Assembly (NCBI GenBank): GCA_947175055.1
Contig: CAMWLJ010000001.1
Location: forward strand, 45,322-109,321
DNA from: an uncultured Lachnospiraceae bacterium
GTDB lineage: Bacteria > Bacillota > Clostridia > Lachnospirales > Lachnospiraceae
Reading direction: 5' to 3'
DNA length: 64,000 nucleotides
Shown: one piece after another, positions 2,140 through 6,615 of the stretch
Position numbering within the stretch: the first letter of the stretch is position 1
Layout: every line of letters starts with the position of its first letter
Position numbers and translations under genes: made by a program
The notes under the pieces: generated by a model
Told to the model about the DNA's origin: nothing
The model's input: only the letters and a program-made list of their open reading frames with translations
The model's database searches: none

Positions 2140-2184
2140 TATGATCATAATAAACGATATAACAGGAAGGGTGTGGATTTATTT

Positions 2185-3114
2185 ATGAAATCGGTCTACA
2201 TGATCAATGGATTTCTCGAGAGCGGCAAAACGGAATTTATCACATATACACTTGCGCAGCCTTATTTTCAGGTGAGGGGAAAGACCTTGCTGATCTTGTG
2301 TGAAGAGGGTGAGAATGAATATGATGAGAAGCTGCTTAAGCTAAGCCGGACAGAATTGGAATTGATCGAGAGCGAAGAAGAATTTAACAGTGGCAGATTG
2401 ATCGAGTTGGAGAAGAAACACAAACCGGAGCGTATTATAGTCGAGTATAATGGGATGTGGAATTATAAGGAGATGAAATTGCCGTGGCATTGGAAGATCG
2501 AACAGCAGATCACGACGATCGATGCTTCTACATTTCCAATGTATTTTACGAATATGAAGTCATTATTGGCGGAGCAGCTTCGGAAATCGGAGATGATCAT
2601 TTTTAACCGATGTGACGGTGTACAGGATCTTAGCAGCTACAAGCGTAATGTCAAGGCGATCAATCCTAAGGCTGAGATCATATTTGAAGATTCTAACGGG
2701 GAGATCAATGAGATCATGGAAGACGATCTGCCATACGATCTGAAATCACCTGTCATTAAACTAAATAATGAAGGATATGGCATCTGGTACCTGGATTCTT
2801 TGGATCATCTGGAGCGTTATGAGGGAAAGACGATTCAGTTTGTGGCGATGGTATTAAAACCCAAGGAGTTTCCGAAGGGCTATTTTGTGCCGGGACGCAT
2901 GGCCATGACCTGTTGTGCGGAAGATATGGCATTTCTTGGATTTGCCTGTGAATATGACAAGGCGGATGTTCTGAAGGAAAGACAGTGGGTGAAGGTGACC
3001 GCAGAGGTTGCCAAAGAATATTTTGCAGATTATCAGGGGGAAGGTCCCGTGCTTCACGCAGTGGAGGTGGAACTGACGAAGGCACCCAAAGAGGAGATCA
3101 TCAGTTTTATGTGA
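2185..3114 (+). CDS. CobW-like GTPase with C-terminal YcgQ/TIGR03943-like domain
   Basis: N-terminal MINGFLESGKTEF P-loop; C-terminal GRMAMTCCAEDMAFLGFACEY...WVKVTAEV resembles the TIGR03943/DUF1980 RFVMTCC-ADA pattern. ORF opens at 2173; ATG at 2185. Confidence 0.75.
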   Translation: MKSVYMINGFLESGKTEFITYTLAQPYFQVRGKTLLILCEEGENEYDEKLLKLSRTELELIESEEEFNSGRLIELEKKHKPERIIVEYNGMWNYKEMKLPWHWKIEQQITTIDASTFPMYFTNMKSLLAEQLRKSEMIIFNRCDGVQDLSSYKRNVKAINPKAEIIFEDSNGEINEIMEDDLPYDLKSPVIKLNNEGYGIWYLDSLDHLERYEGKTIQFVAMVLKPKEFPKGYFVPGRMAMTCCAEDMAFLGFACEYDKADVLKERQWVKVTAEVAKEYFADYQGEGPVLHAVEVELTKAPKEEIISFM

Positions 3115-6146: not shown

Positions 6147-6285
6147 ATAACTCCATCATGCCTTTCCAGCTTTATAAAGAATCTTTCATGATCGCGGATG
6201 TATCCTTACATTTAGGATTACATAGTATATTCTACCTCTGTTATTCAAAAAAATCCATATTTTTTTCTATCCTTTTTTACCGCAT

Positions 6286-6478
6286 GTAACAGTTCAGCCC
6301 TCCTCATTCATAAAAGCGTCTGCTGCGCAGCCGACGCCGCTTTGCGGCTCAACTTTAAACGAACTTTGTTCGTTTTTTTATACTGAGGGCGCTCCGCTCA
6401 TAAAATAATCTGCTGCCAGTGTTTTGTGTGCAAGCACCCACACACAGTCCGCAGATTATTTCATGGCTGAACTGTTAC
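6286..6478. mobile_element. MITE-like non-autonomous element
   Basis: Perfect 14-bp TIRs GTAACAGTTCAGCC (6286-6299)/GGCTGAACTGTTAC (6465-6478), flanked by 8-bp direct repeat TACCGCAT (6278-6285, 6479-6486); no ORF. Confidence 0.85.
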
Positions 6479-6615
6479 TACCGCATTTGCTTTGCCGTGA
6501 TTTAAGCAGGAAGCCACATCGACCGGTAAGTTGACCGGTACTGTATGAAAAGGAACGGATTCGTGACCTTGCTGTCATAACTTGGACAAAGGTTCATATA
6601 TTGAGGTAAGGAGGA

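Follow-up and report, generated by a model that had tools for sequence, protein, structure and literature searches.

The window analysed here, a 64,000-nucleotide stretch of a contig from an uncultured Lachnospiraceae bacterium (assembly GCA_947175055.1), contains spoIIIAA and a divergent PHP gene, and a short inserted element lies in the AT-rich gap between them (Table 1). The perfect 14-bp terminal inverted repeats (TIRs), with 165 nt separating their arms, and the exact 8-bp duplication around the element are, to the base, as a preliminary description had given them, and its claims of a non-coding interior and of internal hairpins hold as well: no ORF of at least 80 aa lies inside the element, and two inverted structures were found in it. 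The whole element folds far more strongly than its shuffles (z = -6.8 and -7.5 for the two strands), and an Rfam scan of the window gave no match. Within the window no other perfect 14-bp inverted pair spans 60-500 bp, and the 8-bp flanks of the focal TIRs are identical; 100 shuffled windows yielded five inverted pairs, none with matching flanks.

Table 1. Features of the element and its surroundings (positions in the window unless a locus is named)
Feature	Position	Strand	Basis or remark
Left target-site duplication TACCGCAT	6278..6285	.	Sequence; the empty site in G086 has one TACCGTAT
193-bp MITE, non-coding, ISBst12/IS66-type ends	6286..6478	.	Sequence; multi-copy in its own genome
Left TIR GTAACAGTTCAGCC	6286..6299	+	Same sequence as the S. 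musculi IS TIR
Right TIR GGCTGAACTGTTAC	6465..6478	-	14/14 complementary to the left TIR
Right target-site duplication TACCGCAT	6479..6486	.	Sequence
Hairpin AAACGAAC-TTT-GTTCGTTT, then T-run, terminator-like	6357..6375	+	Missing in 173-175-bp copies
Internal imperfect inverted repeat, 24-nt arms (6399-6422 / 6442-6465)	6399..6465	.	83% complementary
Outside the element: sigma-E-like motif, putative spoIIIA promoter, intact	6574..6602	+	Conserved upstream of spoIIIAA in relatives
142-bp / 31-bp allele site	L166 / L180 / L075 (G052, G050, G047), around 1501		

Elsewhere in the window, a GTPase-like ORF (1015-2139; CobW/COG0523-type by eye) has a histidine-rich repeat region (HDHEGHEHHHEECC...), and the adjoining ORF (2173-3114) looks similar; the two are perhaps a metal-handling pair.

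The genome to which the window belongs is a fragmented draft (3.47 Mb in 225 contigs, 80.9% complete). It contains 35 exact TIR sites and 57 sites with at most one mismatch, compared to none for a reversed control pattern. BLAST recovered eight full or near-full copies including the focal one (80-100% identity) together with many partial ones, and the search for further genomic copies proposed in the preliminary description is thus positive. In thirteen elements of 84-194 bp the 8-bp flanks match at seven or eight positions, exactly so in six. The copy on C16 differs from the focal element at only 3 of 193 positions (98.4% identity) and is enclosed by a different duplication, CGAAAAAT, which marks the transposition as recent. 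The interior is variable: versions of 191-193 bp and of 173-175 bp differ by the presence of the AAACGAAC hairpin, and other MITEs bearing the same TIR have unrelated interiors.

SpoIIIAA was found in 76 of the 77 genomes of the genus, and the insertion can be placed by comparison with these relatives. The nearest relative (G086; SpoIIIAA 91% identical at the amino acid level) has CTATCCTTTTTTTACCGTATGATTTGTGC in place of the CTATCCTTTTTTACCGCAT-element-TACCGCAT of the window, i.e. it carries a single duplication-like octamer and no element, and thus provides the empty-site allele that was to be looked for. G085 and G091 likewise lack the element. As for the neighbouring operon, spoIIIA is under sigma-E control, and the motif GTCATAACTTGGACAAAGGTTCATATATTGAG directly before spoIIIAA, which is kept in relatives lacking the element, resembles a sigma-E promoter. 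This candidate (GTCATAACTT...CATATATT), which is the same as in element-free relatives, is found about 88 bp downstream of the insertion. Because the motif is conserved, intact and at this distance, a disruption of spoIIIA transcription is not supported, and the earlier suggestion that the element could affect it finds no backing. The weak terminator-like hairpin in the element faces spoIIIA; since the upstream gene is divergent, little transcription should reach this hairpin. In a further genome (G022, L193), a degenerate 32-bp hairpin (GAGAACAGTTCAGAC...CCCTGTTAC) just upstream of spoIIIAA is apparently located at the position of the focal insertion, though the site is empty in the closer relative G086. 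This hairpin may reflect a target hot spot or, alternatively, an old insertion since lost in between.

The combination of GTAA ends and 8-bp duplications is one that we take to point to IS66. MITE-bearing genomes were therefore searched for the IS66 DDE domain, and the flanks of the matches were scanned for the TIRs. Sporofaciens musculi has three copies of an IS of 1814-1817 bp (L368:2580-4393, L369:2293-4109 and L373:2527-4340) with the TIR GTAACAGTTCAGCCTTGCGAYTG, which is identical over 14 bp to that of the MITE, and with the 8-bp duplications TAATGTTT, AACTTTTT and ACTTTTTC. From an ATG at 2865, the L368 copy codes for one protein of 494 aa, and this copy differs from the L369 copy solely by a 3-bp gap; in the L373 copy the transposase frame is broken. 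The protein scores 69.5 bits against PF03050 (cut-off 23.1) and 137 bits against NCBIfam transpos_IS66, which is under the cut-off of 180 and therefore marks it as a divergent IS66 member. The IS shows the traits of the ISBst12 group: (i) an IS66-type DDE transposase by PF03050, (ii) a single ORF without tnpA/tnpB, as only one ORF of at least 90 aa is present in the 1814-bp copy, and (iii) GTAA-type ends with an 8-bp duplication. G466 carries the same IS at 97-98% amino acid identity with a TIR about 47 bp past the stop codon.

The search for a transposase gene with matching TIRs has succeeded in one respect and failed in another: the gene was found, inside an IS, in another genus, whereas none was found in the element's own genome, where the S. 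musculi transposase has no match at E <= 0.001 in the 80.9% complete draft. A close copy of this IS is present in 1 of 397 genomes of the family (E <= 1e-60), so that it is much less common than the MITEs. The genus of the window has single-ORF IS66 relatives, about 30% identical, which in two genomes carry TIR-like ends with 9-11 of 14 positions matching, among them GTAACTATTCAGCA. Several other candidates for the partner were rejected. The IS66 genes C198 and C9 of the own genome have no matching TIR; the multi-ORF IS66 copies of the genus have a different TIR or lack ends within reach; in G074, a TIR pair of 1410 bp encloses ordinary-looking ORFs and its flanks are not duplicated; and among the ORFs inside unpaired TIRs none was recognisable by eye as a transposase.

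The TIR is found in 42 of the 77 genomes of the genus and extends beyond it. At least 118 stretches with the TIR pair at 137-197 bp came from a scan covering 84,980 species genomes; among the matches listed, almost all are from Lachnospiraceae genera or unresolved Clostridiales/Eubacteriales, and one is labelled Bacillus. Two genomes are particularly rich in TIR sites with at most one mismatch, namely G098 (455 sites in 3.3 Mb) and G100 (340 sites in 2.4 Mb). At 119 exact TIR pairs in the scanned loci, the 8-bp flanks match at all positions in 57 and at seven in 30 more (87/119 with at most one mismatch), compared to one pair with exact 7-bp flanks and two with exact 9-bp flanks. The middle of the 8-bp duplications is AT-rich. 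A search of plasmid and phage DNA gave no match save two partial ones in unannotated faecal phage contigs.

In many relatives the MITEs start with a 31-bp hairpin, GTAACAGTTCAGCC-TTC-GGCTTCACTGTTAC, in whose second arm the last bases of the right TIR recur. Among 46 hairpins examined, nine are solo and have flanks in which 7 or 8 of the 8 positions agree, none has flanks that agree at 6, and most of the others are the left end of longer MITEs. At one orthologous site, the allele of G050 is a 142-bp MITE and that of G052 and G047 is the 31-bp hairpin, all with the same 8-bp target duplication and in flanks that are mostly 91-94% identical. The sequence ACTGTTAC occurs both in the hairpin arm and in the right TIR, and a deletion between these two repeats would yield the 31-bp form. 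This pair of alleles suggests a decay route: with the end of the TIR repeated in a terminal hairpin arm, a MITE may be reduced to a short hairpin while the duplications on either side stay intact. The 31-bp hairpins occur at several unrelated sites with exact or near-exact 8-bp duplications; that they would themselves be mobile, i.e. transposing units of 31 bp with their ends back to back instead of collapsed MITEs, we consider unlikely. In G022 a different palindromic element with the ends CAATGTCATTAAGTTAAG is apparently nested in the MITE hairpin at three loci (L101:5008-5402, L106:3092-3431 and L113:2701-3041).

MITEs are short elements (below about 500 bp) that lack a transposase gene, have perfect or near-perfect TIRs and a target-site duplication whose length is constant, occur in several copies at unrelated sites, share their ends with an autonomous element and have an empty site in a relative. 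The focal element, a non-coding sequence of 193 bp, has TIRs that pair at 14/14 positions, an 8-bp duplication both at its own site and family-wide, copies at unrelated sites with differing duplications, an orthologous site that is empty in G086 and, by way of the S. musculi IS and not of its own genome, ends shared with an autonomous element. The earlier MITE-like reading is thus supported by the own-genome copies, the empty site and the IS with the same TIRs. An immobile conserved palindromic or regulatory repeat that mimics a transposon, e.g. a spoIIIA attenuator or RNA element, would account for the strong folding of both strands and for the terminator-like hairpin; however, each copy stands in different flanks with 8-bp duplications, relatives lack the element at the same site and no Rfam family matches it. 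The duplications and the empty site refute this explanation, to which we attach almost no weight. Similarly, an origin as a hairpin element of the REP/BIME type or derived from IS200/IS605, with an HUH (Y1) enzyme as its mover, would be in agreement with a hairpin-rich, extragenic sequence of high copy number that in some relatives consists of a single 31-bp hairpin. HUH/Y1 elements are not known to make target duplications, whereas those observed here are consistently 8 bp, and the enzyme encoded by the partner IS is of the DDE type; the 8-bp duplications refute this origin, which is extremely improbable.

We suggest, with a probability of roughly 0.88, that the 193-bp element is an IS66-family MITE of the ISBst12 group that is moved in trans by an ISBst12-type transposase and is most likely neutral for spoIIIA. 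In this model, the DDE transposase of an ISBst12-type IS with the same 14-bp ends would recognise the TIRs of the MITE and would have inserted it in trans in the AT-rich gap that separates spoIIIAA from the divergent PHP gene, staggered cutting and repair would have duplicated TACCGCAT, and the insertion would most likely have been neutral for spoIIIA. Alternatively, the element is a true MITE whose mover is an unrelated transposase of an IS with the same ends, the ISBst12-type IS being a convergent user of the TIR. In line with this alternative, neither the own genome nor the MITE-rich G098 and G100, which have no PF03050 match, contain an ISBst12-type IS, and the MITE and the S. musculi IS share the 14-bp TIR and no further sequence. 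On the other hand, the 14-bp match is exact at both ends of several IS copies whose duplications have the same length of 8 bp, and related ends are present in the single-ORF IS66 elements of the own genus and in ISDge4; we therefore find an unrelated mover improbable and favor the ISBst12-type transposase.

A 13-base string of the TIR had no occurrence in a literature search, and a 2024 review of prokaryotic MITEs leaves IS66 unmentioned. A genuine and complete MITE now has a family assignment and a likely source of its transposase. A MITE superfamily that is abundant in Lachnospiraceae genomes now has a named probable driver, and by means of the TIR and the 8-bp duplication these repeats can easily be masked and annotated. 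The interest of the element lies chiefly in this abundance and in the tie to the poorly studied ISBst12 group.

The relation to known systems can be drawn at three levels. A classical multi-ORF IS66-type element of 3410 bp (G022, L146:2351-5760; TIR GTAAGCGG(C/T)AAATAATCGGCGTC, duplication AATCGAGA) shares a GTAA terminus and an 8-bp duplication with the focal MITE, whereas its TIR, GTAAGCGGCAAATAATCGGCGTC, is unlike the focal one. ISDge4 is a member of the ISBst12 group that was caught moving and that has the ends GTGACTACTCAGCA / GTAACTGCTCAGCA, an 8-bp repeat and a single transposase of 449 aa (PMC12898284). Its ends GTAACTGCTCAGCA and GTGACTACTCAGCA match the MITE TIR at 11 and 9 of 14 positions, respectively, and its layout of an 8-bp direct repeat and a single transposase ORF is that of the S. 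musculi IS; compared to such ISBst12-group IS of about 1.8 kb, the focal element lacks the transposase gene. Finally, MITEPsy1 of Pseudomonas syringae, an element 100 nt long that has IS5-like ends, duplicates 4 nt and was trapped moving, is like the focal MITE in being short and non-coding and in having TIRs, a target duplication and IS-like ends (PMC3189936). The two differ in the transposase family on which they draw and in that the focal MITE is known here from its sequence, whereas MITEPsy1 was observed in motion.
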